Part shown: positions 35,783 to 64,000 of the stretch, piece after piece
Position numbering within the stretch: the first letter of the stretch is position 1
Layout: each line of letters opens with the position of its first letter
Assembly (NCBI GenBank): GCA_938028705.1
Contig: CALIZI010000150.1
Location: 1-64,000 of the forward strand
Source: an uncultured Saprospiraceae bacterium
GTDB taxonomy: Bacteria; Bacteroidota; Bacteroidia; Chitinophagales; Saprospiraceae
Direction of reading: 5' to 3'
Length of the DNA stretch: 64,000 nt
Program-made: the position numbers and the translations under genes
The notes under the pieces: model-generated
Databases searched by the model: none
Seen by the model: the letters and a program-made list of their open reading frames with translations, nothing else
Told to the model about the DNA's origin: nothing

Positions 35783-38700
35783 ATGAAAAATTTTACACAT
35801 CAAACACGTAAAAATCCAATAGTTTTTAGTAAGCAATTTATCCAAAATACTTTCAAATTTATTCCGGTCTTATTGTTCTTCACAATAAGCTCGCAAGTAT
35901 CCGCCCAATGCCCGACCATCTTCATAGATGACCTCAACGGCGTACCCGGATACCCGACACTCAATGAAGCGAGTGTCTGTGGCGAACCGGATACTTTGAC
36001 TTATTATTTACTCAATACCTCCGGGCAGGAATTGCTCAATTCGCAAATCGAATTGGAGATTCCACAGGGTTTTGCTTATGCGGGATTTTATGATTATTAC
36101 GACCCGGCTTATGTCATCAATCAGGGCAGCACTTCCGACCCCAATGCGCCTTCCTTTGTGATGACCAATTTCAGTGCGGATAGTGTGCAGATATTTACAG
36201 TGGGAGTAGTAGCAGTGTGCGATGTGTACGAATTGCCCAGTACAGCCGTTTTTGAGTTTGATATGAACTTTAATTATATCTACAATGACCCTGCACTTGG
36301 CTTGCTTTCTTGTACGACAACCTCCAATGGTGATATTAATTACAGCCCTTTTCTCAAGCGACCTACCTTGAATATCATTGGGAATAGTGCGCCCAATATC
36401 GGTATTACCAATAATGCCAGAAGGTGTACCAATGTTACGGTCTCTCAAAATGGAATCGGAGCATCACTGACAGATTTCAAATTTGAAATACAAGGCATAG
36501 ACCTCACCACAAATTATATATTAGATAGATTCAGAGTAAATGGCACCAACGCTCCATGGACTTACGATCCGGCTACGATGACCGTCACCGCAGATGTGAC
36601 TTCGGGTTTTCTGCCCGGCGGTTCATTGACAGAGGATGAATCCGTGGTGATACAGATTTGCTATATGGACGCGCTTGATTGTGAAACCAACCAAGCAATA
36701 AGTAATATAACTTATGCCGCCTCATTTGGTTGTGGTGGCGGAGAGGCTTGTGTTGAACCTTCTACTTCGGAGGGTACTATAAACTACGCACCTAATTTTG
36801 GAGCAGACCCTGTGGTCAATGTAACTCAAGTGCAAAGTCCGGCTATCTGTGGCGATAATGCCATTTTTGATGTGACGGTCAATAGTGATGTCAGCGACCC
36901 ACTTACGGGACTTTTTGAAAGTCTTGAAGTAGGCTTTCAGATTTGTGAGGCAGATGCTTTCGATGCGGCAGATGTCAGAATCAATGGTGTATCTATCGAC
37001 CCCAGTTATTTTTATTATGATAATTTTGATTTTGTAATTAATACGACACTATTCACAACCGACCTCGACGGTCCCGGTATAGGTTTGGAGGATGTTGATG
37101 GCGATGGTTTCTTTGATGACCTGCCCGGTGGCAATACATTCAGCCTGACCATAGAAGCAGCCATTAAATGTCAAGACCCACAACAAATTGTGGGCTGTGC
37201 GGCTTTGGATTGTACTTTTGAACAGGCTACCGTAAAAGGACAACGCCACTGCGGTCAAGATTTCCAACGATTACCTGTCGTCAGTCCTGCCCCCGTATTT
37301 TCTTATGGTGCAGATACGGTATATGTAGATGAAGGCAATATCGGTACGGAGACCAGCCCGGTTTTTGGTTTTGATTTTGGTACAGGTGTTAATGATGCTC
37401 TGACTGATATTACAGCTACTTATTGTTATGAATTTGGTTCTGATGGAATTGGTGAATGTGCGGAAGGGAATACGTATTTTGAAGTGGCTGTTGCCGGACC
37501 GCTTATCGTGACTACAGATTTGGCAATTAATAATGCTACCGTAATGTTTGATGACGGTGTATCGGGTCCTACGCCCGTCGCTTCAAATTTAATTAGCACT
37601 TATTATCCTTATGCTCCGCTTGACAGTCAGCAGATAGTATTTAGAATAGAAGCAGGAAGCAACAATCAGGATGTAGATATATGTTATACATTTACTTTAG
37701 AATTAGATGAATGTTTGTGTTATCCCGAACAAATATTAGTCGCCAATATGCGTGTGGTAGAGGAATGTACGGCTTGCTCACCCGATGCCTGTACGATTGT
37801 GCGCTCCTGTGATGAAACCTTTCTTGCTACCCGACGAACTTGTGCCTGTACCTGCCCGATGAGCGATGATATTGTCGAAATACATCGCGTCGAATTTGGA
37901 TATGATGATAGGTCACGCTCCAATCCATTTGACCTCAACTCGCCCGAAGTAGCCAATGACCTAAATCGGTATTTACCCTGCGATTCGGTCTATATACACA
38001 TTGAATATGAAGTCTTGGATGCACTGACGGTCAGTTCAGCCAGTTGGCTGCGACTTTACCTTTATGGACGTGCATTGGAAGGACGGAACTTCAATCCCGG
38101 ATTAGAACTCTTTCCCGACCTCACACATGCCCGTATGAATGAATTTGCTTTTGAAAAAGTAGGCAATCCGGGTACGCGTGTACCGATTGATTTTTCTTCT
38201 ATTGATTGTACCACAGGTGATGCAGCCCAAGTTACGAATCTTAATGATGGTTTTTTGGAAGCAGCAGGTTTTGAAAGACGGGGAATTGCCGGATCCACAG
38301 GACTTTCCGTATATAATGTAGGCAGAGATGTCTTTGATAATGAACTCATTTACATGGACATCTTTGATAGAGACGAGATGGCTGCAGATGGTGGCGGCAA
38401 TGTAAACCTCAGCGGCGACTGTCTCAATCATCTCTTCGATACCCAGATGGGAGGATTGGAGACAGGAGATAAGTTTCACTGGATTATCACCGTACCCCTG
38501 CAAAAAAATCCTTACCGTTTGCTCAATGCCGACATTGCCGCCAAACCCAAATCCACCCTCAATTTTAGAGGCTTCGCCAATATATGGCAGAGTGTAGGAG
38601 GCTCTACTACTCATATTAGTGGTACTTGCGGTGGCAACACACCCGTAGAAACCTATTGCCCCGACAAAATCAACTCCACCACACTACTCGAAGTAGATGA

Positions 38701-41700: not shown

Positions 41701-44700
41701 TGTATTATTACAATCAGGTTCAAACAATCAATTTACGCTCCCATTTGGCACAGGTGATTTTTATGTCATTACAAATGACGGACAATGCGATGTAGCATCA
41801 GATATAATGACGCTTGATGTAGATGAATGTATCTTTGACATGGCTTTAATAAAGGTACTTTCTCCCTCTCAAAATACGCCCGTATATCCCGGCGATATTG
41901 TCACTTACGATATTCAGGTCTTCAATCAAGGTACAGTTCCTGCCGTTGATATTGAAGTTATAGATTACATTCCGACTTGCTTCCAATTAGCGGATAATAA
42001 TTGGTTTGATTTAGGAAATAATGAAGCGAGCATCTCCATTCCCGGACCGCTTGCCGCAGGTACTTCTACTACCGTTTCTATTGATTTAGAGGTATTGCCA
42101 TGCGTTACCGCAGGTACATCAGCCAACTTTGCAGAAATCGCGTCTGCCGATGATATTAATGGAGAAGCTTATCCCGATATTGATTCCGACCCTGATACCG
42201 ACCTCTTCAATGATGGCAAACCCGACGACGATATAACCGACAATACCGGTGGAGATGAAGACGACCACGATATTGCAATTGTTCCTGTCGAAGTATTTGA
42301 TTTAGCCATAGTAAAATTAATCCCTGCCACACAAGCTAGTCCGGTCACCCTAGGTGATGATGTCACTTATACGGTAAAAGTCTGTAATCAAGGTACTGTT
42401 GATGCTTATAATGTTGATATCATTGATTACATCCCAACAGGCATGACCCTCAACGACCCTGCATGGATACCAACTGCCAATAATACCGCTACCTATACCA
42501 TTGCAGGACCTGTAGTTGTTGGAGATTGCTTCCCCATTGATGTTACTATGACAGTCAACACCCTTCCTGCAAATGGTGTGTATCAAAATTTCGTAGAAAT
42601 CACCGACGCAGAAGACGTGGACGGCGACCACCCCAACGATGTAGATAGTACCCCCGACAGCGACCCAACGAATGATGGGCCCGTTACCGATGATGAAACT
42701 AATAATACCAATGACGACGAAGATGACCACGACCCCGCAGTCATTCCCGTACTCATTCTTGGCTGCGAAGTCTCCAATAATGGACCAATTTGCCCCGGCG
42801 ATGATGCCGAACTTTACGAAACCTCCGGAGACGGCGCATCATGGGCTTGGACAGGTCCCGGCGGCTTCACCAGCACGCTCCAAAATCCGATAGTCAGCCC
42901 CGCAGTAGGTGGTGTTTATTCCGTTGTGATTACGGATGCAAATGGTATTACACAAGAATGTTTTACTCAACTCGACGTTACGCCTTCCATGCTCATCAAT
43001 GGCACGACCCAAGATGCCCTTTGTAATGGCAGCACAGATGGTACTATCGACATCCTTGTAAATGGCGGTCTCGCACCCATCACTTATGATTGGGACAATG
43101 ACGGTGCAGATGCCATAGATAATGATTTTGAAGATTTAATAGGACTTGCCGCAGGTACATACACTGTTACCGTTACCGATGCCAACAGTTGTACCATTAT
43201 CGCATCTTACACTGTGGGCGAACCGGCTGCAATTGCTTGTACCACCACACCTACCGATGCACTTTGCAACGGCAGTGCAGACGGTCTCGTAACTATCGCA
43301 GCCACAGGAGGCACTGCCCCTTACGAGTATAGCCTTGCAGGAGGTCCATGGCAACCCGGCAATATGTTCTCCGGCTTGGCGGCAGGTACTTATACCGTTG
43401 ATGTCAGAGATGTGCAAAGTTGTTTGGGTACGTGCAGCGTCACCATTGGCGAACCTATGCCCCTCACTTGCACAGTCGCACCTACCGACCTTACTGATTG
43501 TTTTGCTGATGATGGCACACTGACCGTCACAGGCACAGGTGGTGTAGGCACATATATGTATAGTTTGAATGGCGGAAATACTCAACAAGCAAGCAATGTA
43601 TTTACAGGACTTGCAGTTGATACCTACACCGTCATGGTCATTGATGCCAATGGCTGTACCACAGAATGTACTGCCACTATCGGCACACAACCCACGCCGA
43701 CTTGTACCATTACAGCCACTGCAAATGTTAGTTGTAATGGTGCCGATGGTATGCTTACTATACAAGGCGCAGATGGTACAGGTAATTATGAATACAGTAT
43801 TGACGGTATCAATTTCCAAACAAACAGCACATTCACAGGATTGAATGAAGGAAGTTATATCATCACAGTGAGAAATGTCGAAAGCCCATCGTGTACAAGC
43901 ACTTGTGAGGCTATCATTATAGAAGATTGCTGTATCTATCCTATCGTTGATGCCTTTGTAATTTCACCGAGCTGTACCGATGGCATACCCAATGACGACG
44001 GCTATTTCAGGCTTAGTTCAGTCTTTAACGGTACACATTATGATTTCAGCGAAGGTGTTACTTATACCGGAACAGGTATTGCAAATGCAACACCACTCAC
44101 CGGTACTTCTGTAGAATTTGCCACACTAAACAATCCCGCTACAACGACCTATTACACCATTCGTGTATTCAATCAAGAAGACGACTGTTTTACAGATGTC
44201 GTACTGACCCTCGAACCACAAAACTGTGAATCAGATTGTAGCTGTACCGAAATGCTCTACCTCAATGATACCGGAACAGGAGAAGTACATAAATTTTCTA
44301 TTGACCCGGCTACCGGAGCAATTACCGAAATAGGCTCACCGTGGATGAGTGGCTTTACTAATCCACACGGGCTTGGCTCCGATGCCAATGGTAATTTATA
44401 CATAGGAAATGACCTCACCGGACCTATCTATCAGGTGCCTTACAATGGTGGAACAGTAGCAAATGACGGTGTAGTATGGTTCAATAATTATGAAAACGGA
44501 CTCACCAATGTAGGCAGCTACCAAGACTATATCATCACTACCGGATATCAACCCGGAGACAATGGTAAATACCTCACCGTTCACGATATATGTACAGGCG
44601 ATATACTCGGGCAAATTTGTCTCAATGATGCCGGAAGCGGTCCTTGGTCTTCCGATTGGGGATTACAAGTATTGGATGACGGTACTGTATTGGCTACCGA

Positions 44701-53700: not shown

Positions 53701-56700
53701 ACCAATCGCAGCCTACGGTGGTACACAAACGGTGGATATTACGCTGATTATCAACCCGACGATTAGCAATGTACAGAGTATTCTCAACCTTGCGGAAATC
53801 AGTGGTGCAGAAGACGAAAACGGTATTCCGCAAGACGATATAGATTCTACACCAAACGGAAATCCTGACGATGACAATCTATTCGTAGATGACAATATCG
53901 ACAGTGTATTTGGTGATGAAGACGACCACGATCCGGCAGTAGTGCCATTGAGTTACTTCGATTTGGCATTAATCAAAACCGTCTCCAACGCGCAAGTTAT
54001 GCCCGTAGGACCCGGCGATGATATTACATTTACATTAGCCATTACAAATCAAGGAAATGTAGATGCCTATAATATCGAATTGGCAGATTATATTCCAACT
54101 GATTTAATATTAAATGATGCAGATTGGACAGATAATGCAGGTACAGCCGAATTAAATACACCAATCGCCGGACCAATCGCACCCAATGCGACGACGACGA
54201 TAGATATTACATTCACCATTGATGCGAATTTCCAAGGCACCTCTATCACCAACTACGCTGAAATCAGCGGAGGCGATGATGACGGCGACCCAACGACTGA
54301 CGCACCGGAAGATATAGATTCTACACCGGACAGCAATGACGGCAATGACGCAGGTGGCGAACCCGATTCACCGGCTGACGACAGCACAGGCGGTGACGGT
54401 ACAGGTACTCCGGGCGACGACAATCCAAATACGGATGAAGACGACCACGACCCGGCGACATTTGAAGTGGAGCAAACATTTGATTTAGCATTAATTAAAA
54501 CGCTTGCGGCAGGACAATCGCCCAACGTATCTATCGGCGATTTTGTGACCTATAATATTACAGTCGCAAATCAAGGTACAATTGATGCGTATAATGTAGA
54601 AGTAGTCGATTATATCCCTGCGGGAATGACAGTAGCTGACCCGAATTGGATTGCAGGACAAGCGGTGAACGAATACTTCACAACGATTCCTTTCTTAGCG
54701 AAAAATACAAGTACGGTCATTAGTATTACTTTGGAAGTGCAGCCGGACATCGTAGGCGGTACATCTCAAAACTTTGCTGAAATCAGCGATGCAGATGACG
54801 ATACCGACCCAACGAATACACCACCGACAGACATCGACTCTGACCCGGATGACGACCCGAATAATGACGGTCCATCCAGCGACAACTACACCAACAACTT
54901 CAACGGTGACGAAGACGACCACGACCCCGCAGAAGTATTTGTAGAAATATTTGATTTGGCTTTGGTCAAAACAGTATCAAGCGCACAAACCTTCCCCGTA
55001 GGACCGGGCGATGATGTGACCTTTACATTGACCATTACAAATCAAGGAAATATTGATGCGTATAATATTGAAATAGCGGATTACATCCCGTCTGATATGA
55101 GTTTGAATGATCCCGATTGGGCAATTTCAAACACATCCGGCGCAGCCGGGTTAGTGATGCCGATACCCGGACCACTTGCGCCCGGCTTCTCGACTTCCGT
55201 TGATATTACGCTAATGATTGACCCGACCTTCCAAGGCGATGAAATCACAAATTATGCAGAAATCAGTGGCGCAGATGACGACCAAAATCCGAACAATGCA
55301 CCACCAAACGACGAAGATTCCACGCCCGACAGTGACAACACCAACGACGGCGCACCGGAAGACAACGTAACCGATAATACCAACGGCGACGAAGACGACC
55401 ACGACCCCGAAACTATCCCCGTAGGTCAGTCATTCGACCTTGCTTTGGTCAAAACACTTGACCCGACACAGCCGAATCCGGTAGCTCCCGGAGATATGGT
55501 GACGTATAATATTGCTGTCATCAATCAAGGTACTTTGGATGCTTATAATGTGGACGTAGTGGATTACATTCCGGCAGGATTTACATTGGCAGATGCCAAT
55601 TGGTCACCGGGTGCAGTCACAAGCGAAGTCTATCAATTGATTCCCGGACCAATCATGCCGGGTGCTACGGTAGTCTTGGAATTGACCTTACAAGTGGATG
55701 CGAATTATGCAGGTGGTACATCAACCAACTTTGCTGAAATCAGCGAAGCCGACGATGACCAAGACCCAAGCAACGATCCACCACAAGACGCAGATTCGAC
55801 ACCGGATAATGACAATACCAACGACGGTACACCGGAAGACGACGACACCGACAATACCAACGGTGACGAAGACGACCACGACCCGGCGGATATTACAGTA
55901 GAAATATTTGACTTGGCATTGGTGAAAACAGTCGCACCTTCACAAACATTCCCTGTATTTCCGGGCGATGATGTGACCTTTACGCTGACTGTTTCCAATC
56001 AAGGTACTGTTGATGCGTACAATATTGCATTAGCCGATTACATTCCGATTGATATGAGTTTGAATGATGCGGATTGGACGGAAAATGTAGCGGGTATCGC
56101 AAACTTGAATATGCCAATTACTTCATTAGCCGCAGGTGCAAGTACAACGGTTGAAATTACCTTGAATATTGACCCAACATTCCAAGGGGAAGACATCACC
56201 AACTTTGCAGAAATCACCGAAGCGGATGATGACACCGACCCAACGAATGACGCACCGGAAGACATAGATTCGACACCGGACGATGACAATAATAACGACG
56301 GCGCACCGGAAGACAATATCACCGACAACACCAACGGTGATGAAGACGACCACGACCCTGAGACGATTCCTGTCGGTCAAATATTTGACTTGGCATTAAT
56401 CAAAACACTTGCGGCAGGTCAGTCTCCAAATGTCTCTATCGGCGACCAAGTGACTTACAATATTACAGTGGCAAATCAAGGTACGCTTGATGCTTATAAT
56501 ATTGAAGTCGTAGATTATATTCCTGCGGGAATGATAATGGTAGATCCGAATTGGACACCGGGACAGGTAGCGAATGAATACTTCACGTCTATCAATTTCT
56601 TGGCAGCCAATACAAGTACAGTCATTACGATTACGCTTGAGGTTGGACCGGATATCACAGGCGGTACATCTCAAAACTTCGCTGAAATCAGCAATGCAGA

Positions 56701-59700
56701 TGACGACATGGATCCGAATAATACGCCACCAACTGATATAGATTCGACACCAGACGACGACGACACCAACGATGGTCCATATACCGACGACATCACCGAT
56801 AATACGAATGGTGACGAAGACGACCACGACCCGGCAGAAGTATTTATTGAAATATTTGACTTGGCATTGACCAAAACACTTGACCTCAACCAGCCAATGC
56901 CAATTACACCCGGCGGTGATGCGACTTTCTTAGTGGAAGTCATCAATCAGGGTAATATTGATGCTTATGATATTGTACTGACCGATTATTTACCAACAGG
57001 CACTACATTAAATGATGCCAATTGGATGGACAACGGTGACGGTACAGCAACATACAACTCAATTGCCGGACCAATTGCTCCGGGCAATGCTGTCACCGTT
57101 TCAATTACGGTTCAATTAGATGCGACATTCGCAGAAAATAGTATTACCAATTTCTCTGAAATAAGTAGTGCAGACGACGACCTCGATCCGAATAATGACC
57201 CACCAACAGACGTGGATTCTACACCGGATGCAGATGGTAGCAATGATGCAGGTGGCGAACCCGATTCACCTTCGGATGATAGCACAGCCGGTGACGGCTC
57301 AGGCGCACCGGGCGACGAAGATCCAACTACGGATGAAGACGACCACGACCCTGCAACTACACCTGTCGGACAAGTATTTGATTTGGCATTGACCAAAATA
57401 CTACTCAATCCGAATGATACATATTACATCGGCGATGATGTAACGTTCCAAATCGAAGTCACCAATCAAGGTACATTAGATGCCTATAATGTGGACATCG
57501 TGGACTACATCCCCGCAGGCTTGACGCTCAATGATGCCAACTGGATTTCTGGTTTTGGTAATGAAGCATTTACCACAATCGCAGGACCAATCGCAGCTTA
57601 TGGCGGTACGAGTTTGGTGGATATTACGGTAACGATTGATGCAACATTCACAGGCGGTACGCTCACCAATTTTGCGGAAATCACAGACGCAGAAGACGAG
57701 GACGGCAACCATCCGCAAGACGTAGATTCTGATTCGGATAATGACCCAACTAACGATGGTCCACACGTAGATAATGAGACAAACAATCTCAACGACGACG
57801 AAGACGACCACGATCCGGCAGACATCACAGTCGATGTATTTGACTTGGCACTCTTGAAAGATTTGTCACCAAATCAGACGCTTCCGGTATTCCCCGGACA
57901 AGACGTGACCTTCATTTTGACGGTCTATAATCAAGGTACGGTAGCTGCACAAAATGTACTCCTTACGGATTACATCCCGGCAGGATATGTCTTGAATGAT
58001 AATGACTGGACTTCAGTTTCTCCAACAGAAGCGAATACAGTTGTACCCGGACCGATTGCTGCAGGTTCAAGCGCGAGCGTAGCCGTCACGATGACGGTAC
58101 AGCCCGGCGCAACCGCAAGTGATTTGGTCAACTACGGTGAAATCACAGACGCAGAAGATACCGAAGGCAATCATCCACCGGACACCGATTCTACACCGGA
58201 CAATACCAACGACGACCCATCGGTGGACGGCGTAACAGACGGTACAGGTGGCGACGAGGACGACCACGATCCGGCTACTGTTCCGATTAGTGGATTTGAC
58301 TTGGCATTGAATAAAGTATTGAGCGATCCGGCTTCGGGCGGACCCGTTCAGTCAGGCGATGATATTACATTTACCGTTTTCGTTCACAATCAAGGTTCGG
58401 AAGATGCGTACAATGTACTCGTCACCGATTACATCCCGTCCGACCTCACATTGAATGATGCAGACTGGACTTCGGTAAGCGCGACAGAGGCGAATATCGT
58501 CATACCCGGACCAATCATGGCAGGTATGAGCGAAGAAGTTGAAATTACCCTTACCGTCAATCCGAATGTAAGTGGCAATTTGACGAATTATGCGGAAATT
58601 TCTGATGCAGAAGATGAAAACGGCAATCACCCGATTGACGCAGATTCTACACCGGATAATGACCCGAATAATGACGGTGACGCAGAGGATGAAGAGATTT
58701 TTGAAAATGGTGAAAACGGAAATGACGAAGACGACCACGATCCGGCAAGCGTATTTGTAGGTGAATTTGACTTGGCTTTAAGCAAAACTTTAGCCGGCGG
58801 ACAAGCCTCAACCGTAGCCGTAGGTGATTTGGTGACATTCCAAATTGAAGTCTTCAATCAAGGTGATTTCGATGCGGCTGATGTAGAAATTACAGATTAC
58901 ATTCCGGCTGGATTTACATTGGCAGACCCGAATTGGGTCAGTGTAGATGCTTCGACGGCAACAACCACGATTACCGGACCAATTACGGTCAATAGTAGCG
59001 AGATTGTTACCATTATACTTGAAGTAATGCCCGATGTTTCCGCAGGAAATCATGTCAATTTTGCAGAAATTTCTTACGCAGAAGATACCAACGACAATCC
59101 GCAGGATGATGTAGATTCTACCCCTGACGGCGACAATAACAATGATGCAGGCGGTTCACCGGATTCTCCGGCGGATGATAGCACAGGCGGTGACGGTACA
59201 GGTAATCCGGGCGACACCAATGCAGCTACGGACGAAGACGACCACGATCCGGCAGATATTAATGTAGAAGTATTCGACTTGGCACTTACAAAAGTATTGA
59301 GCGATACAACTATTAATTATTATCCCGGCTCTAATGTCACTTACACCATCGAAGTATTCAATCAAGGTTCGATTGACGCTTATAATGTAGAAATTTATGA
59401 CTACATACCAAGCGGACTCATCCTGAATGATACCGACTGGGCAAGCTTCACAGGAAGCGAAGCCGTAACGACTATCGCAGGACCGATTACCGTAGGCAAT
59501 AGCGTGACAGTGGACATCACTTTCACCATTGACCCGGACATCACTAGTGCGGATTCAGTAACGAATTTTGCTGAAATCACAAAAGGTGAAGACCTAAACG
59601 GTACACCACAAGACGACGTAGATTCTACACCGGATAATGACCCAACCAACGACGGCATACCGGAAGATGACGTAACCGACAACACCAACGGCGACGAGGA

Positions 59701-62700
59701 CGACCACGACCCGGCTACTTTGGATATTGAAATATTCGACTTGGCATTGATGAAAGTATTGGTCAACCCAACGGAGGCTTACTTCCCCGGCGATACGGTG
59801 ACCTTTACGCATGAAGTATTCAATCAAGGTACGGTGGACGCTTACAATATTGACGTAGCGGATTATATTCCAAGCGGATTGATATTAGCGGATAATGACT
59901 GGACACAAACAGGTACTACCGCATTCATCAGCCTGAATGGACCGATTGCCGTAGGCATGAGTGAGACGGTGGATATTACATTCATCATCGACCCAAGCCT
60001 TACAAGCGAAAGTTCGATACAGAACTTTGGTGAAATCGTAGGCGCAGAAGATGAAGACGGTCAGAAACCGGATGATATCGACTCCGAAGGCGATGCCAAC
60101 GATAGCAATGACGGTGATTATTCAGATAATGAAATATTTGAAGACGGTGAAAATGGAAATGACGAAGACGACCACGATCCGGCTCAGGTGAATGTCGATA
60201 TTTTCGACCTTGCATTGGTCAAAACATTGGCTGACCCAACAACAATTTACACTGTCGGTAGCGATGTCACTTTCAATGTCGAAGTCATCAATCAAGGTAC
60301 GGCAGACGCATATAATGTTGATGTTGTAGATTATATCCCAACCGGATTAATCTTGAATGATGCAGGTTGGAGTTTCCTCAATGCAGGTACAGCAACAAGG
60401 TCTATCACAGGACCGATACCTCCGGGAGCTTCCGAAATGCTGACGATTACCTTTACTATTGACCCGAACTTACCCGCAAGCGTGACTTCATTGGAGAACT
60501 TTGCTGAAATCAGCGGAGCGGAAGATGAAAATAACGATGTAGCAGAAGACATCGACTCCACACCGGATAGCGACGACAGCAATGATGCAGGCGGTGCATC
60601 AGACACAGCTTCTGATGATGCTACGGACGGTGACGGTACAGGCACACCGGGCGACAGCAATCCGGCAACGGATGAAGATGACCACGATCCGGCACTAGTA
60701 TCGGTAGGTACATTTGACTTGGCATTGATTAAAACATTGGCAGGTGGACAGAGTGCGATGGTAGCACCCGGAGACCTCGTTACCTTCCAGATTACTGTCT
60801 TTAATCAAGGTAATATTGATGCAACAGATGTAGTTATTATAGATTATATTCCGGCTGGATTTACGCTCGCGGACAGCGACTGGACGAGTACCAATCCTTT
60901 GAGTTTGAGAGCCACTTACACAATGACAAGCGTAATCGCTGCGGGTAGTTCTGAAACAGTAGAAATTACTTTGAAAGTTAATGGTAATGCACAAGGCGAT
61001 TACACCAACTTTGCAGAGATTGCTCACGCAGAAGATACGGACGGTAATGATATGGACGACAAAGATGTGGATTCCACACCTGACACCGATAATACCAACG
61101 ATGGTCCGGTCAGAGATGATACGACCAATAATAATGATGGCGACGAAGACGACCACGACCCGGCTACTGTTACGGTAGAATACTTCGACCTTGCATTGAC
61201 GAAAGTATTGGCGAGTTCACAAGTATATTACAATCCGGGCGATGCCGTTACCTTTACGATTGAAGTATTTAATCAAGGTACAATTCCGGCATACAACATA
61301 GCAGTGACGGATTATCCACCAACAGGTTTGACACTTGCGGATAATGACTGGACAGAATCATTTACGGGAGATATTCTTTATCAAATTCCGGGACCAATTG
61401 CACCGGGTGCTTCGACCACAGTGGATGTTACCTTCATTATTGATGCGAATGTTACTGATGCGAGTTTGACTAACTTTGCAGAAATTGCAGACGCAGAAGA
61501 TGCAGAGGGCAACCACCCGAATGATATTGATTCTAATCCGAATACCGACCCGACTGATGATGTAGTTATTTATGATAATGATACAGGCAGCACATTGGGT
61601 GATGAAGATGACCACGACCCGGCAGTAGTCTTGATTGGCGACCAAATATTTGACTTGGCATTGAGAAAAGTATTGGCGAATCCAAACGCGACTTACTTCG
61701 CAGGAGATGATGTTATCTTTACTATCGAAGTGATTAATCAAGGTACAATTGATGCTTACAACGTCAGCATCGTGGATTACATACCCGCAGGTATGATGCT
61801 CAACGATGCGAACTGGACCCTTGCCGCAGGCAACGAGGCATTCACCAATATCGCAGGACCGATTGCTGCCAACGGTGGTACGACTACCGTTGACATTACG
61901 CTTACGATTGATGCAAATACGAGTTTACAAAACTTCACAAATTATGCAGAAATCAACGGTGCGGAAGATGTAAATGGCATTGCACAAGATGACATCGACT
62001 CGACACCAGACAACAATCCGGGTAACGACCCACTACTTGTAGATGACGACATCAACAGCACGAATGGTGACGAGGACGACCACGATCCCGCTACCGTTTC
62101 ATTGAGTGTATTTGATTTGGCATTGGTCAAAACATTAAGCGCGACACAAAATACGCCTGTTGGCGTAGGCAGTGATGTGACATTTACATTGACCATCACC
62201 AATCAAGGTAATACAGATGCGTATAATGTCAATATTGCTGATTACATTCCAACAGGACTCATTTTGAATGATAATGACTGGATTGAAAATACACCGGGCG
62301 TAGCAGAATTGTTCTTCCCAATTGCAGGACCGATTGCCGCAGGCAGTTCGTATAATGTCGATATTACATTTACGGTAGATCCTACATTTACAGGTACTTC
62401 TATCACAAATTATGCGGAAATCAGCGAAGCTGATGATGATACCAATACGGCGAATACGCCGCCAACGGATAGCGATTCTACGCCGGACAGCGACGATACA
62501 AATGACGCAGGTGGCGCACCGGATACATCGTCAGATGACGCAACAGGCGGTGACGGTACAGGCACCCCCGGCAGCAACGATGCAGCTACGGACGAAGACG
62601 ACCACGACCCGGCAACGATTGAGATAGCGCAAATATTTGACCTTGCCTTAACAAAGGTATTGGCAAATCCGCAAGGTAATTACTACGCCGGTAATGATGT

Positions 62701-64000
62701 AACTTTCACTATCGAAGTATTCAATCAAGGTACAATTGATGCCTATAATGTGGACATCATCGACTACATACCGACAGGCTTGAACTTGAATGACAGCGAC
62801 TGGATACCGGGCATACAATCGGCTACGGCATTGGCGACCATACCGGGACCAATCACACCGGGCAATAGTGCAACGGTTGACATCACCTTAAAACTTGATT
62901 CATTGAGCGGTACGCCGACCTTGACCAACTTTGCTGAGATTACCGATGCAGAGGACGTGGACGGTAATTCGCCTGACGATGTGGATTCCGATGCTGACGT
63001 GGATGGACTTAACGATGGTTTCTACCTAGATGATGAAATTGATAATGCCAGCGGTGACGAAGATGACCACGACCCCGCAAGCGTCACCTTGCAGATATTT
63101 GACCTCGCATTGGTCAAAAATCTTTCACCGACACAATCACTGCCTGTCTTTGAAGGTCAGGATGCTACCTTTGTATTTACCGTTTACAATCAAGGTACGG
63201 TAGATGCAACCAATGTAACTATTACAGATTACATACCCTCCGGCTTCCTCTTGAATGACAGCGACTGGGTGTCTGTAAGTCCAAGCGAGGCATACACCAT
63301 CATTACGGATGTGATACCCGCAGGCGGAGATTATCAGGTAGAAGTCACCATGACGGTACAGCCCGGTGCAGGTGGTATGGATTTAATCAACTTCGGTGAA
63401 ATCTCCGAAGCTGAAGATACACAAGGCAATATGCCTGAAGATGTGGACAGTACACCGGATGATAATAATACTGACGATTGGATAGACGGTGTAATCGACA
63501 ACTCAAGCGGCGACGAAGACGACCACGACCCCGCTCAATTACCGGTAGGTGTATTTGATGTGGCATTAGCAAAAGTCACTTTACTGCCATCGGTAGGAAC
63601 GCCGATATATGAAGGAGATTACGTGATATTTGGATTGTACATTTACAATCAAGGTACAGATACGATACAGAATATTGAATTGACCGATTATATTCCGCCT
63701 GAACTGACATTAACTGATCCGGACTGGACATTAGTGAGTCCGACTGAAGCTACTTTCCTATACACCGGAAAAATAGCACCGGGAAGTTCAGGACTGGTAC
63801 ACATCGGATTTACGGTCAATGATGTCTCCAATGGTATCATTACCAACTACGCAGAGGTCAGTGATGCCGAAGATACCAATGGTAATCATCCGCCGGATGT
63901 GGATTCTACACCGGATAATGACAATACCAATGACGGTAATGTACAGGATAATGAAATATTTGAAAATGGTCAAAACGGCAATGACGAAGATGACCACGAT
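35783..64000 (+). CDS. Giant T9SS-type repeat adhesin, at least 9,406 residues (3' partial)
   Basis: One reading frame runs without a stop from 35783 to the window edge. Signal peptide: residues 1 to about 42 (FKFIPVLLFFTISSQVSAQ). Residues 43 to about 2010 hold many Cys-containing beta-sandwich-like modules. Two DUF11 units follow (FDMALIK and FDLAIVK, about 2015 and 2171), then an Ig/PKD-like segment and SprB-like repeats (about 2395-2715), a propeller-like section (GEVHKFSIDPATGAI; residues 2820-3120), Ig-like modules, and from about residue 3317 at least 38 DUF11 units (FDLALxKT, NQGxxDAY, xDYIP, NxAEIS, DEDDHDP). I see no Cys in the units I translated. The upstream ATGs at 35750 and 35756 would only lengthen the signal region. 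The C-terminal sorting domain is not in the window; T9SS export is inferred. Confidence 0.93.
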   Translation, partial: MKNFTHQTRKNPIVFSKQFIQNTFKFIPVLLFFTISSQVSAQCPTIFIDDLNGVPGYPTLNEASVCGEPDTLTYYLLNTSGQELLNSQIELEIPQGFAYAGFYDYYDPAYVINQGSTSDPNAPSFVMTNFSADSVQIFTVGVVAVCDVYELPSTAVFEFDMNFNYIYNDPALGLLSCTTTSNGDINYSPFLKRPTLNIIGNSAPNIGITNNARRCTNVTVSQNGIGASLTDFKFEIQGIDLTTNYILDRFRVNGTNAPWTYDPATMTVTADVTSGFLPGGSLTEDESVVIQICYMDALDCETNQAISNITYAASFGCGGGEACVEPSTSEGTINYAPNFGADPVVNVTQVQSPAICGDNAIFDVTVNSDVSDPLTGLFESLEVGFQICEADAFDAADVRINGVSIDPSYFYYDNFDFVINTTLFTTDLDGPGIGLEDVDGDGFFDDLPGGNTFSLTIEAAIKCQDPQQIVGCAALDCTFEQATVKGQRHCGQDFQRLPVVSPAPVFSYGADTVYVDEGNIGTETSPVFGFDFGTGVNDALTDITATYCYEFGSDGIGECAEGNTYFEVAVAGPLIVTTDLAINNATVMFDDGVSGPTPVASNLISTYYPYAPLDSQQIVFRIEAGSNNQDVDICYTFTLELDECLCYPEQILVANMRVVEECTACSPDACTIVRSCDETFLATRRTCACTCPMSDDIVEIHRVEFGYDDRSRSNPFDLNSPEVANDLNRYLPCDSVYIHIEYEVLDALTVSSASWLRLYLYGRALEGRNFNPGLELFPDLTHARMNEFAFEKVGNPGTRVPIDFSSIDCTTGDAAQVTNLNDGFLEAAGFERRGIAGSTGLSVYNVGRDVFDNELIYMDIFDRDEMAADGGGNVNLSGDCLNHLFDTQMGGLETGDKFHWIITVPLQKNPYRLLNADIAAKPKSTLNFRGFANIWQSVGGSTTHISGTCGGNTPVETYCPDKINSTTLLEVDDCTATVEHVFKVENLPNDWYLNEYRPFFEFDQLTVPIASPFVYAGNPTVQFPDGTIVPLSEPTFASDMFCAFDNGQNFCTPTGTTGYATFDVSEIPNLGVGLTGELPDSIVVRYDLARICPGIVDKPQDFELYYDYSYLCEYNPGGNYCNLTIADGNGNNSFFNDNLAYPVEDCPGTVSTSSLLFDQRDYHAFEDTTFTLNFQDNSNQLPTLSSGIDFSLVADAPGEPEVNAYQVCVNTDGTIPHSNILTTINVPTTIDLLTVTYPNGSPVVYTQTGSTPTSKTYLIEHPADMQPGECFDINIETELIFCPTPDTDTEVCIGTTSSCMPPTLASQLFAEGGGACTSTESCFEYIAGEAEIQAEWTTLNVDPIALCQIDTLEVLVKNTKLATLVDLDFNFILPAGMNVVPGTFEYSYPGGPTNFGPWLPIADPVPNGSNVFGDVITMTDNGMPYISSNGMPGIASSLDSNRLSIRFAVETLCDEYTSNTPLYFEATAADPCESRITSGFTVNEGILIDGAIPADQAQFLIVADPLKYTCGGPVQVNIGAINLSQTGGETNSSVSCFTFPSQIPYTPGSFSFTSPGSHVPVLTETNLGGGIYEVCFDLPDGIAPQQSFAFNVELTPDPSIECQELSFTALIRSVIENQICVSDNSTCSVFVNNTINQEVIMQIAPAVEVAEMDVIVQCDDDPTVTTYDYTMTLEGVSTSDYIGNVLIEFYQDVDQNGQLDSYDVLAAPAVSQLVNVSSGEETDVLGTVTLAESISCPILIRATFDVNCECNSHIFLYNEAPTPDFIAQFDGSETVLCPGDELTLDVCTGYNFSLSPSFAGTINNSGGILSVDINNGFGINAPVTLNVASQQANCGGNFSLDIYQLEDFAIGPYGQLDVCATGCQQLDLNIPAEWETSFDFEWTPTDFLDDPTSPTPTICNPTYDVVYTVTVREATGQCETSAVFPVNIIGTNQPTLDYLGSDNCYLPYAPAMIEAFPPGLSNYEFYYILNGVDVLLQSGSNNQFTLPFGTGDFYVITNDGQCDVASDIMTLDVDECIFDMALIKVLSPSQNTPVYPGDIVTYDIQVFNQGTVPAVDIEVIDYIPTCFQLADNNWFDLGNNEASISIPGPLAAGTSTTVSIDLEVLPCVTAGTSANFAEIASADDINGEAYPDIDSDPDTDLFNDGKPDDDITDNTGGDEDDHDIAIVPVEVFDLAIVKLIPATQASPVTLGDDVTYTVKVCNQGTVDAYNVDIIDYIPTGMTLNDPAWIPTANNTATYTIAGPVVVGDCFPIDVTMTVNTLPANGVYQNFVEITDAEDVDGDHPNDVDSTPDSDPTNDGPVTDDETNNTNDDEDDHDPAVIPVLILGCEVSNNGPICPGDDAELYETSGDGASWAWTGPGGFTSTLQNPIVSPAVGGVYSVVITDANGITQECFTQLDVTPSMLINGTTQDALCNGSTDGTIDILVNGGLAPITYDWDNDGADAIDNDFEDLIGLAAGTYTVTVTDANSCTIIASYTVGEPAAIACTTTPTDALCNGSADGLVTIAATGGTAPYEYSLAGGPWQPGNMFSGLAAGTYTVDVRDVQSCLGTCSVTIGEPMPLTCTVAPTDLTDCFADDGTLTVTGTGGVGTYMYSLNGGNTQQASNVFTGLAVDTYTVMVIDANGCTTECTATIGTQPTPTCTITATANVSCNGADGMLTIQGADGTGNYEYSIDGINFQTNSTFTGLNEGSYIITVRNVESPSCTSTCEAIIIEDCCIYPIVDAFVISPSCTDGIPNDDGYFRLSSVFNGTHYDFSEGVTYTGTGIANATPLTGTSVEFATLNNPATTTYYTIRVFNQEDDCFTDVVLTLEPQNCESDCSCTEMLYLNDTGTGEVHKFSIDPATGAITEIGSPWMSGFTNPHGLGSDANGNLYIGNDLTGPIYQVPYNGGTVANDGVVWFNNYENGLTNVGSYQDYIITTGYQPGDNGKYLTVHDICTGDILGQICLNDAGSGPWSSDWGLQVLDDGTVLATDGQGFGPDTDRAIWKFQFDPSLIGSSTCVDAIATDDNNSYLSGVYDVLGITTDGTHLYVLTRDINAMATILKIDANTGALVTSVTDNPNDGVGWHAALGLVYAPSSNYLYVSGFEDCIAIVNPDDLSYVGPGNGIIPFGSVPKAITLKKECCPANTNQTIDETYCISDTLRVILLNDVYDCDGSITPGTWEMVSVEGSVTYDQCDQTVTVGDIGGCATFVKSSDGLSDGGLQCGAFEMTMNIEFLYNAPPVLADTTVCGDNPFTLTPTIDPGITGLNYQWQSSAISCSTGFNNIVGATDYTYTTTIPTGSTMYYRLLTTLEGDCSSGECTEISNCATVVADNCNFDLALVKTVSATQATPIVPGDMVTYEIEVINQGAVDAYNIEVVDYIPSGLLLADATWSPGANPSEVYQNIPGPLAAGTSTTLTIVLQVDPNYNGGDMQNFAEISEADNDTDPSNDPPTDTDSNPDNDPDNDGDFTDDTTDNTNGDEDDHDPADIFVEVFDLALVKTLSATQTLPVGPGDDVTFTLTIINQGNVDAYSIELADYIPSDMTLNDADWTENVAGLADLNVPIAGALAPGASTTVDITLTIDPTFQGDAITNYAEISGADNDTDSGNTPPTDIDSDPDSDNTNDGAPEDNVTDNTNGDEDDHDPETVPVGQVFDLALIKTLAPGQPNPVAPGDMVTYEIEVINQGTLDAFNVEVVDYIPSGFSLADATWTPGAVTSEVFQNIPGPIAPGTSVTLTLTVQVNPTFTGGSSVNFAEISQADDDTDPTNTPPTDTDSTPDNDNTNDGPPEDDDVDNTNGDEDDHDPAEVVVEIFDLALVKTVAAAQTFPLAPGDDVTFTLTVTNQGTVDAYNIDLTDYIPSDMSLNDADWTENIPGEADLNVPITSLAAGASTTVDITLTIDPTFQGDAITNYAEISDADDDTNPNNTPPTDIDSTPDADGNNDAGGDPDSPADNATDGDGTGTIGDSDPTTDEDDHDPETIPVGQVFDLALIKTLAGGQSPSVAIGDLITFNITLANQGTLDAYNIELVDYLPTGLVLADPNWIAGQAANEVFYTVPGPLAPNTSMVVPITMQVTSAAAAGNNTNFTEISQADDDTDPSNTPPTDVDSDPDNDPNNDGPVSDNEMNNGNGDEDDHDPQDFFVENFDLALVKTLANTQSLPIAAGDNVTFIIEVFNQGNVFAYSIEITDYLPAGTTLNDALWTDNGDGTATYTGMTGALAPGASFNVPITIQLDANFMDTSITNFSEISAADDDLDPNNTPPTDIDSTPDDDDSNDGTPDDNVTDNSNGDEDDHDPETVPIGQTFDLALVKTVDPNQPMPIVPGDLVTYQIDVINQGTLEAYNVEVVDYTPSGMLAADPSWSVGANPSELYQTIPGPIAPGATVTLTLTLQVDPNYAGGDTQNFAEITQADDDTDPSNDPPTDIDSDPDSDVNNDGDYEDDATDNTNGDEDDHDPADVFVQVFDLALVKTLSPTQMLPVAPGDDVTFTLTVTNQGNVDAYSIELADYIPSDMTLNDSDWTDNAGVAELNVPIAGALAPGASTTVDITLTIDPNFQGDEITNYAEISAADNDTDDTNTPPTDIDSDPDGDNTNDGAPEDNVTDGTNGDEDDHDPETVPVGQVFDLALIKTLAPGQPNPVAPGDLVTYEITVFNQGTLDAYNVDVVDYIPAGFTYADNDWNIGGSPNEYYQLIPGPIAPGGAVVLDLTLQVDANFAGGTTTNYAEIASADDDNDPTNTPPTDTDSTPDSDNSNDGDSEDDVTDNTNGDEDDHDPAEVVVEIFDLALVKTVAAAQTFPVLPGDDVTFTLTVTNQGTIDAYAIDLTDYIPADMSLNDADWSENIPGEADLNVPLAGPIAPGASVTVDITLMIDPTFQGDAITNYAEISDADDDNNPNNTPPTDIDSTPDADGNNDAGGDPDSPADNATDGDGTGAIGDGDPTTDEDDHDPETIPVGQIFDLALIKTLAAGQSPNVAIGDLITFNITIANQGTLDAYNVEIVDYLPAGLTLADANWLPGQVANEVFTTYAGPLSPNTSTVIPLTLEVTAAAAGGDTQNFAEITSADDDTDPTNTPPTDIDSTPDDDPNNDGPYTDNDFDNTNGDEDDHDPEDFFIEIFDLALVKTLAPNQPMPITQGDDITFVVEVFNQGNIDAYNVEITDYIPTGTTLNDVFWTDNGNGTATYSAIPGPIAPGASAIVGITIELDPNFIDLEITNYAEISAADDDLDPNNDAPEDIDSTPDPFNNNDAGGDPDSPADNATDGDGTGTVGDGDPITDEDDHDPETVPVNQTFDLALVKVLDPAQAMPVNPGDLVTYFITVSNQGTLLAYNIEVVDYIPAGMLLADATWMPGANPSETFQTIPGPILPGDDMVLSLTLQVDPNYAGGDLQNFAEISEADDDTDPNNTPPTDIDSDPDTDPDNDGNYTDDVTDNTNGDEDDHDPADLFVEVFDLALVKTMSFTQTMPVAPGDDVTFTLTVTNQGNVDAYSIELVDYIPADMSLNDPDWTENVAGIADLNVPIAGALAPGASTTVDITLTIDPTFQGDAITNYAEIAGADNDTDDTNTPPTDEDSTPDGDDSNDAGGSPDSPTDDSTNGDGSGAPGDTDPTTDEDDHDPETFEVQQTFDLALVKVLDPAQPMPVNPGDMLTYFITVYNQGTVDAYDIEVVDYIPAGMLLADANWSLGVNTSEAYQTYAGPIAPGANAVLPIVMQVDPNYAGGDLQNFAEISAADDDTDPNNTPPTDVDSTPDSDDSNEGDFVDDVTDNTNGDEDDHDPADVFVEVFDVALEKILSPNQSLPLVPGDDVTFTLVITNEGNVDAYSIELVDYIPADMSLNDADWTETNGIAYLNNAITGPLAPGASAMVDITFTINPNFQGETITNYSEISAADNDTDPTNDPPTDEDSTPDDIDNGEDEDDYDPETVPVGQVFDLALTKMLTDPNKLYYPGDSVTFTIEVTNQGTIDAYDVQIIDYIPSNTTLADVNWFMGFGGNVAFYQMAGPIAAYGGTQTVDITLIINPTISNVQSILNLAEISGAEDENGIPQDDIDSTPNGNPDDDNLFVDDNIDSVFGDEDDHDPAVVPLSYFDLALIKTVSNAQVMPVGPGDDITFTLAITNQGNVDAYNIELADYIPTDLILNDADWTDNAGTAELNTPIAGPIAPNATTTIDITFTIDANFQGTSITNYAEISGGDDDGDPTTDAPEDIDSTPDSNDGNDAGGEPDSPADDSTGGDGTGTPGDDNPNTDEDDHDPATFEVEQTFDLALIKTLAAGQSPNVSIGDFVTYNITVANQGTIDAYNVEVVDYIPAGMTVADPNWIAGQAVNEYFTTIPFLAKNTSTVISITLEVQPDIVGGTSQNFAEISDADDDTDPTNTPPTDIDSDPDDDPNNDGPSSDNYTNNFNGDEDDHDPAEVFVEIFDLALVKTVSSAQTFPVGPGDDVTFTLTITNQGNIDAYNIEIADYIPSDMSLNDPDWAISNTSGAAGLVMPIPGPLAPGFSTSVDITLMIDPTFQGDEITNYAEISGADDDQNPNNAPPNDEDSTPDSDNTNDGAPEDNVTDNTNGDEDDHDPETIPVGQSFDLALVKTLDPTQPNPVAPGDMVTYNIAVINQGTLDAYNVDVVDYIPAGFTLADANWSPGAVTSEVYQLIPGPIMPGATVVLELTLQVDANYAGGTSTNFAEISEADDDQDPSNDPPQDADSTPDNDNTNDGTPEDDDTDNTNGDEDDHDPADITVEIFDLALVKTVAPSQTFPVFPGDDVTFTLTVSNQGTVDAYNIALADYIPIDMSLNDADWTENVAGIANLNMPITSLAAGASTTVEITLNIDPTFQGEDITNFAEITEADDDTDPTNDAPEDIDSTPDDDNNNDGAPEDNITDNTNGDEDDHDPETIPVGQIFDLALIKTLAAGQSPNVSIGDQVTYNITVANQGTLDAYNIEVVDYIPAGMIMVDPNWTPGQVANEYFTSINFLAANTSTVITITLEVGPDITGGTSQNFAEISNADDDMDPNNTPPTDIDSTPDDDDTNDGPYTDDITDNTNGDEDDHDPAEVFIEIFDLALTKTLDLNQPMPITPGGDATFLVEVINQGNIDAYDIVLTDYLPTGTTLNDANWMDNGDGTATYNSIAGPIAPGNAVTVSITVQLDATFAENSITNFSEISSADDDLDPNNDPPTDVDSTPDADGSNDAGGEPDSPSDDSTAGDGSGAPGDEDPTTDEDDHDPATTPVGQVFDLALTKILLNPNDTYYIGDDVTFQIEVTNQGTLDAYNVDIVDYIPAGLTLNDANWISGFGNEAFTTIAGPIAAYGGTSLVDITVTIDATFTGGTLTNFAEITDAEDEDGNHPQDVDSDSDNDPTNDGPHVDNETNNLNDDEDDHDPADITVDVFDLALLKDLSPNQTLPVFPGQDVTFILTVYNQGTVAAQNVLLTDYIPAGYVLNDNDWTSVSPTEANTVVPGPIAAGSSASVAVTMTVQPGATASDLVNYGEITDAEDTEGNHPPDTDSTPDNTNDDPSVDGVTDGTGGDEDDHDPATVPISGFDLALNKVLSDPASGGPVQSGDDITFTVFVHNQGSEDAYNVLVTDYIPSDLTLNDADWTSVSATEANIVIPGPIMAGMSEEVEITLTVNPNVSGNLTNYAEISDAEDENGNHPIDADSTPDNDPNNDGDAEDEEIFENGENGNDEDDHDPASVFVGEFDLALSKTLAGGQASTVAVGDLVTFQIEVFNQGDFDAADVEITDYIPAGFTLADPNWVSVDASTATTTITGPITVNSSEIVTIILEVMPDVSAGNHVNFAEISYAEDTNDNPQDDVDSTPDGDNNNDAGGSPDSPADDSTGGDGTGNPGDTNAATDEDDHDPADINVEVFDLALTKVLSDTTINYYPGSNVTYTIEVFNQGSIDAYNVEIYDYIPSGLILNDTDWASFTGSEAVTTIAGPITVGNSVTVDITFTIDPDITSADSVTNFAEITKGEDLNGTPQDDVDSTPDNDPTNDGIPEDDVTDNTNGDEDDHDPATLDIEIFDLALMKVLVNPTEAYFPGDTVTFTHEVFNQGTVDAYNIDVADYIPSGLILADNDWTQTGTTAFISLNGPIAVGMSETVDITFIIDPSLTSESSIQNFGEIVGAEDEDGQKPDDIDSEGDANDSNDGDYSDNEIFEDGENGNDEDDHDPAQVNVDIFDLALVKTLADPTTIYTVGSDVTFNVEVINQGTADAYNVDVVDYIPTGLILNDAGWSFLNAGTATRSITGPIPPGASEMLTITFTIDPNLPASVTSLENFAEISGAEDENNDVAEDIDSTPDSDDSNDAGGASDTASDDATDGDGTGTPGDSNPATDEDDHDPALVSVGTFDLALIKTLAGGQSAMVAPGDLVTFQITVFNQGNIDATDVVIIDYIPAGFTLADSDWTSTNPLSLRATYTMTSVIAAGSSETVEITLKVNGNAQGDYTNFAEIAHAEDTDGNDMDDKDVDSTPDTDNTNDGPVRDDTTNNNDGDEDDHDPATVTVEYFDLALTKVLASSQVYYNPGDAVTFTIEVFNQGTIPAYNIAVTDYPPTGLTLADNDWTESFTGDILYQIPGPIAPGASTTVDVTFIIDANVTDASLTNFAEIADAEDAEGNHPNDIDSNPNTDPTDDVVIYDNDTGSTLGDEDDHDPAVVLIGDQIFDLALRKVLANPNATYFAGDDVIFTIEVINQGTIDAYNVSIVDYIPAGMMLNDANWTLAAGNEAFTNIAGPIAANGGTTTVDITLTIDANTSLQNFTNYAEINGAEDVNGIAQDDIDSTPDNNPGNDPLLVDDDINSTNGDEDDHDPATVSLSVFDLALVKTLSATQNTPVGVGSDVTFTLTITNQGNTDAYNVNIADYIPTGLILNDNDWIENTPGVAELFFPIAGPIAAGSSYNVDITFTVDPTFTGTSITNYAEISEADDDTNTANTPPTDSDSTPDSDDTNDAGGAPDTSSDDATGGDGTGTPGSNDAATDEDDHDPATIEIAQIFDLALTKVLANPQGNYYAGNDVTFTIEVFNQGTIDAYNVDIIDYIPTGLNLNDSDWIPGIQSATALATIPGPITPGNSATVDITLKLDSLSGTPTLTNFAEITDAEDVDGNSPDDVDSDADVDGLNDGFYLDDEIDNASGDEDDHDPASVTLQIFDLALVKNLSPTQSLPVFEGQDATFVFTVYNQGTVDATNVTITDYIPSGFLLNDSDWVSVSPSEAYTIITDVIPAGGDYQVEVTMTVQPGAGGMDLINFGEISEAEDTQGNMPEDVDSTPDDNNTDDWIDGVIDNSSGDEDDHDPAQLPVGVFDVALAKVTLLPSVGTPIYEGDYVIFGLYIYNQGTDTIQNIELTDYIPPELTLTDPDWTLVSPTEATFLYTGKIAPGSSGLVHIGFTVNDVSNGIITNYAEVSDAEDTNGNHPPDVDSTPDNDNTNDGNVQDNEIFENGQNGNDEDDHD
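41824..42759 (+). repeat. First two DUF11 units of the giant protein
   Basis: FDMALIKVL and FDLAIVKLI mark two units that resemble the main array but are separated from it by about 3 kb of other domains. Both have the DxDSxPD acidic tail; the first reads DEDDHDI and the second DEDDHDP. Confidence 0.85.
42970..43925 (+). repeat. SprB-like repeats in the giant protein
   Basis: Four or five units of about 75-80 residues carry DALCNGSxDG near their starts and LAAGTYTVxVxDxNxC at their ends. This is the pattern of the SprB repeat known from the gliding adhesin of Flavobacterium. Confidence 0.8.
44230..45150 (+). other. Propeller-like segment of the giant protein
   Basis: Repeated blade-like strings (NPHGLGSDANGNLYIGN, YDVLGITTDGTHLYVLT, WHAALGLVYAPSSNYLYVSG) resemble beta-propeller turns that bind ligands or other proteins. 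Propeller identity is inference. Confidence 0.5.
45731..64000 (+). repeat. Tandem DUF11 array, at least 38 units
   Basis: Unit starts (FDLALxK) lie near 45731, 46204, 46683, 47158, 47680, 48157, 48632, 49105 and so on to about 63556. The mean period is about 482 bp (161 residues). Each unit ends in acidic Asp-Pro-Thr/Asn-rich linkers and DEDDHDP, encoded by nearly the same bases each time. Nine units have a longer Gly/Asp/Ser-rich linker. Units 3-8 and 9-14 (numbering the two early units 1-2) repeat as a block of six. The array continues past the edge. Confidence 0.95.

Follow-up and report, generated by a model that had tools for sequence, protein, structure and literature searches.

A megadalton DUF11-repeat protein of an uncultured Saprospiraceae bacterium: a predicted cross-linked surface fibre with a large cysteine-rich head

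The crystal structure of a DUF11 domain shows an intramolecular Lys-Asn isopeptide bond, associated with heat and protease resistance, the formation of which is presumably assisted by an Asp (PMC12617251). In CnaA-like isopeptide domains the Lys is located in the first strand and the Asn in the penultimate strand, and SdrD_B is also listed as an isopeptide domain family in the same survey (PMC12617251). That survey of the AlphaFold database, which established DUF11 as an isopeptide domain, was blind to proteins longer than 1,280 aa (PMC12617251), and giant arrays such as the one described here therefore fell outside its reach. DUF11 is listed among the frequent domains of proteins longer than 5,000 aa in a survey of huge proteins (PMC11573180). 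Regarding the anchoring of proteins secreted by the type IX secretion system (T9SS), type A cargo is attached to anionic LPS, whereas type B cargo is bound to PorP-like proteins (PMC9143113).

The window analysed here is a stretch of 64,000 nucleotides that forms the start of contig C150 (79,013 bp) in the genome of an uncultured Saprospiraceae bacterium (G000; 8.0 Mb, 483 contigs, 98.5% complete). On its plus strand a stop-free frame of 9,420 codons runs from 35741 to the window end at 64000; considering that a random frame at 41.7% GC meets a stop about every 16 codons, a chance origin of this frame is excluded. The original prediction, which was made from the window and described a single uninterrupted frame of more than 9,400 codons, is thus borne out, and the stop codon that it proposed to seek beyond the edge is present in the contig, where the gene ends at position 64852 followed by TAA, 855 bases past the window. 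Counted from the ATG at 35783 the gene has 9,690 codons (9,704 from the first in-frame TTG) and a product of approximately 1.03 MDa. This ATG is the better start, because the orthologue in a genome of the same genus (G191) starts at the homologous MLNFTHQ. Bacterial proteins larger than this one are known, so size alone does not make it exceptional. Neither a stop nor a frameshift interrupts the completed gene, which carries a signal-peptide-like N-terminus and a sorting domain. The N-terminus, judged by inspection, has a basic start and a hydrophobic core, with cleavage probably after VSA. HMM searches give the domain order as head, two DUF11 units, four SprB repeats, an inserted module, 38 DUF11 units, about 190 other residues and a T9SS type A sorting domain, in agreement with the order read earlier from the letters (Cys-rich part, two DUF11, SprB, a part named propeller-like, DUF11 array). 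The features are as follows.

35783..64000, continuing to C150 64852 + TAA, plus strand: coding sequence of the giant protein (frame scan; start set by the G191 orthologue)
35783..35905, plus strand: signal-peptide-like N-terminus (sequence inspection; similar in same-genus genomes G191 and G003)
35903..41830, plus strand: conserved Cys-rich head of 1,976 aa, without a Pfam family (profile and alignment of relatives)
41831..42778, plus strand: first two DUF11 units, with the Lys-Asp-Asn triad (Pfam and our own HMM)
42995..43930, plus strand, boundaries approximate: four SprB repeats (PF13573; Pfam HMM)
43931..45547, plus strand, boundaries approximate: inserted module (absent from two same-genus orthologues)
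45731..64000, ending at contig position 64018, plus strand: array of 38 tandem DUF11 units (HMM), with the triad in all units and a net charge of -1199

The same genome contains further giants. A second complete one on contig C33 (L032:579 to L033:7629) has 9,016 codons, a head of its own type, Asp-rich 'DGDGIPD' repeats, about 33 DUF11 units and a sorting domain near-identical to that of the C150 giant. The third DUF11 giant, on C149 (L034:658-17565; 5,635 codons, 23 units), shares the sorting-domain type and has a different, unrelated-looking N-terminus. A further giant on C245 (L036:5835-19562) is open at the contig end after 4,576 codons; the repeat carries on in a short contig, C38 (L040), which ends in an IPTL-CTERM-like tail, and the two may therefore be one broken gene.

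An array of similar units in a genome split into 483 contigs and holding three DUF11-array giants raises the question of whether the array is chimeric or of wrong length, particularly as the C245 giant, of which C38 may be the continuation, is interrupted by a contig end. However, exact DNA repeats of at least 50 bp were not found within the gene, so that even short reads could plausibly assemble it, and no exact repeats of at least 60 bp are common to it and the C33 or C149 genes. In G191 an orthologous frame, cut off by its contig end, has the same order (head, two DUF11, SprB, DUF11 array) and a head 82% identical to that of C150. Seven of its first nine units (1, 2, 3, 4, 7, 8 and 9) best match the same-numbered C150 units at 83-94%; the match is less clean for units 5, 6 and 10-13. 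Complete relatives of 5,968-8,098 codons also sit inside contigs of 53-577 kb. Both the lack of exact repeats and the collinearity of the units with those of an independent genome speak against an assembly artefact, which is unlikely and to which we give hardly any weight. The second same-genus genome, G003, likewise has a head 82% identical to that of C150 and the same early architecture, and a comparison of C150 with G191 gives a dN/dS of about 0.1 for the head and of 0.05-0.1 for the compared units. The collinear orthologue, the G003 head and the low dN/dS argue that the gene is real and maintained. A megablast search of the region against plasmids gave no match.

Whereas at least 40 DUF11 units had been predicted, an HMM built from the units counts exactly 40 (2 + 38), all starting inside the window, and Pfam DUF11 (PF01345) matches above the cut-off along the protein are in line with this count. 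The tandem units are 146-175 aa long, with a mutual identity of 53% on average and 90% at most. Among the first 15 units of the array identity is highest between units six apart (77%), atop a two-unit alternation, which points to old block duplications in the history of the array.

Two aspects of the units are highlighted. First, the Lys7-Asp44-Asn99 triad is kept in 40 of 40; second, the 6,097-aa array has only 46 lysines, 38 of which occupy the triad Lys position, and it combines its strongly negative net charge with a complete lack of cysteines. In an AlphaFold2 model of two units (pLDDT 90), Lys7 is part of the first strand (residues 3-9) and Asp44 of strand 37-45, Asn99 belongs to the penultimate strand (95-107), and an acidic stretch of about 40 residues forms a loop before the last strand (149-156), after which the next domain follows directly. 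The model matches the CnaA-like beta-sandwich, whose first strand bears the Lys and whose penultimate strand bears the Asn. A sequence search of the PDB found no solved DUF11 relative of these units, and the triad was therefore matched to that of 9IFR through its spacing and the strands that bear it rather than through an alignment; Foldseek with the two-unit model returned generic Ig-like chains only. Covalent Lys-Asn cross-links are, on the strength of the triad and the model, strongly predicted to form in the stalk units, and such a stalk should resist proteases and pulling. Where relatives lack the triad Asp, the replacement is mostly Glu. One relative with the same head has none of these DUF11 units and SdrD_B domains instead; a cross-linked stalk thus seems to recur in the head family although the module changes. 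Calcium binding by the Asp-rich loops is a guess, and calcium-motif models are not among the Pfam matches of the protein. With 40 predicted self-forming cross-links in a chain that would have to cross the outer membrane, it becomes directly testable whether folding and cross-linking precede, accompany or follow the passage through the T9SS.

The Cys-rich region at the N-terminus, which had been described as modules, is indeed Cys-rich and constitutes a single head family, coherent and conserved, with a length of about 1,980 aa. An alignment of 31 heads shows 56 cysteine positions kept in at least 90% of them, and the C150 head is probably disulphide-rich. The second giant of the genome, that on C33, carries a related head, about 30% identical. 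Relatives in GTDB genomes comprise 19 loci, of which 18 belong to Saprospiraceae MAGs; the remaining one, a distant partial match, comes from a Flavobacterium MAG. A head profile at E 1e-10 matches in 210 of 398 sampled Saprospiraceae genomes, some of these matches covering only the C-terminal part of the head, and at E 1e-40 gives none in about 390 sampled class members outside the family. The head represents a large conserved family absent from Pfam, present in whole or in part in approximately half of the sampled Saprospiraceae genomes. A Pfam scan of 12 heads gave only one marginal DUF11 match, in one member, and a PDB sequence search gave no relative. Derivation of the head from a divergent DUF11 is not supported, as profile comparison reached at best E 0.006 and 6% probability. 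The N-terminal half is predicted, at moderate confidence (pLDDT 76, pTM 0.49), as an all-beta chain of sandwich-like domains, and Foldseek with this model found only generic Ig-like chains with low TM-scores. In a tree of the heads the C150 and C33 types form separate well-supported groups, with long-branch warnings. In two places (G242:C11:53718-66348 and G353:C14:96254-109137) head matches occur as adjacent pairs, in frames no longer than about 2,100-2,200 aa, which suggests that head-only versions without a long stalk exist.

Between the first two DUF11 units and the array lie the SprB repeats and a module that was formerly called propeller-like. The module is present; it is missing from both same-genus orthologues (G191 and G003), which makes it a lineage-specific insertion, and a propeller fold is only weakly supported. 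A separate frame of 713 aa in G003 contains a part with 78% identity to the 310-aa core of the module (44222-45151). Its absence from both orthologues, together with this separate copy, makes a recent capture in this lineage the most likely origin.

The sorting domain that the original prediction hoped to find is present at the C-terminus of the completed gene (TIGR04183, E 2.7e-9; PF18962, Por_Secre_tail, E 2e-9). All matching models are of type A, and no type B (CHU_C) domain was matched. The genome encodes the T9SS translocon protein SprA (2440 bits) and the PorU sortase (1295 bits), and at least 150 type A sorting-domain matches are found in it. A surface location of the protein is well supported by these sequence features, and LPS anchoring, taken by analogy from type A cargo of Porphyromonas, is probable. 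Among relatives the sorting domains are type A-like or type B: a relative in genome G005, with a head 52% identical to that of C150, carries a type B domain (CHU_C), and its gene is directly followed by one for PorP/SprF. Judged from these domains, the head family uses both anchoring routes.

The four SprB repeats, the SprA in the genome and the type B relative with its adjacent PorP/SprF gene invite the reading of a gliding adhesin of SprB type, moved along the cell by the T9SS motor. Yet the sorting domain here is type A, and the neighbours tested are an LRR/receptor-L gene upstream and a TIR gene downstream, neither being PorP/SprF; this makes a gliding role improbable. The comparison with SprB drawn earlier stands for size and repeats and fails for the sorting domain and the neighbouring genes. 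As a candidate SprB orthologue the protein was rejected on the same two grounds. The upstream neighbour (33398-35329) is a receptor-L/LRR protein with its own type A sorting domain, and similar proteins occur in tandem on contig C451 of the same genome. Just downstream, on the minus strand (C150 66810-71331; L031:6810-11331), the TIR-domain gene overlaps a gene for a 1,193-aa protein without a Pfam match, and the two might be a defence pair.

What function, then, would such a protein perform? We favour, with a probability of roughly 0.6, a T9SS-exported, LPS-anchored cell-surface fibre, in which a cross-linked acidic stalk presents a binding head. After Sec export the protein would pass the outer membrane by the T9SS, and PorU would remove the sorting domain and join the C-terminus to anionic LPS. 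A very acidic stalk would be formed by the 38 tandem units, each domain locked by its self-formed Lys-Asn bond, and would carry the head at its distal end, perhaps 150-190 nm away from the cell if each domain spans 4-5 nm, where it could bind a surface, another cell or prey. Aureispira, likewise a member of the Saprospiraceae, is a predator, and a grappling-hook role for the head is no more than a lead. The 38-unit repeat stalk and the surface-anchor sorting domain present here belong to the fibrillar-adhesin plan, and from this architecture adhesion by the head is a reasonable inference. No recognised adhesive domain was found in the head with Pfam, PDB sequences or a fold search. Of the surface adhesin originally proposed, the giant Bacteroidota surface protein of DUF11 and SprB repeats is substantiated by the sorting domain, and its adhesive role keeps the standing of an inference.

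The same gene could also encode a structural sheath, S-layer or extracellular-matrix fibre that coats or links the organism's own cells, heads assembling with heads and not with foreign targets. DUF11 is found in archaeal proteins that stabilise cell aggregates and in proposed S-layer components (PMC12617251). The head has no recognised ligand-binding domain, two or more such giants occur per genome, and head-length versions with little stalk seem to exist, all of which suit a structural role. On the other hand, a long tandem stalk, a distal module and a C-terminal anchor together constitute the plan of fibrillar adhesins, and surface-lattice proteins are usually far shorter, for which reasons the structural reading is considered rather unlikely.

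Beyond the LPS-anchored fibre with its binding head, a broader proposal may be put forward tentatively: a class of megadalton fibres specific to the Saprospiraceae, in which nearly all stalk lysines would be engaged in internal covalent bonds (up to 40 per chain) and a protease-resistant stalk of great length would carry an undescribed, disulphide-locked head of 2,000 aa that catches cells or particles, relatives keeping the head while swapping cross-linked stalk modules and type A and type B anchors.

SprB of Flavobacterium johnsoniae is, like the C150 giant, a giant T9SS cargo with SprB repeats, but it is type B cargo bound to SprF (PMC9143113), whereas the C150 giant is type A, with no SprF found beside its gene. 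The CLIPPER (DUF11) fibrillar adhesin B9T28_05395 of Acinetobacter silvestris (PMC12617251; PDB 9IFR) shares the tandem DUF11 stalk, the Lys-Asp-Asn triad, an N-terminal head and a C-terminal anchor. It has 2,129 aa, a CshA-type head and an OmpA-like anchor (PMC12617251); the C150 giant, in contrast, is 9,690 aa long with 40 units, carries a T9SS sorting domain and has a Cys-rich head that is undescribed. Giant1-5 of Apilactobacillus kunkeei (PMC12863079) are likewise very large extracellular proteins (3,000-8,000 aa) with an N-terminal head and several copies per genome; they belong to Gram-positive hosts and have beta-solenoid heads (PMC12863079), and the likeness to the C150 giant is one of plan. 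Neither the isopeptide triad nor this head family is mentioned in the consulted passages of the huge-protein survey (PMC11573180). The C150 giant follows the known fibrillar-adhesin plan, with a large head family outside Pfam.
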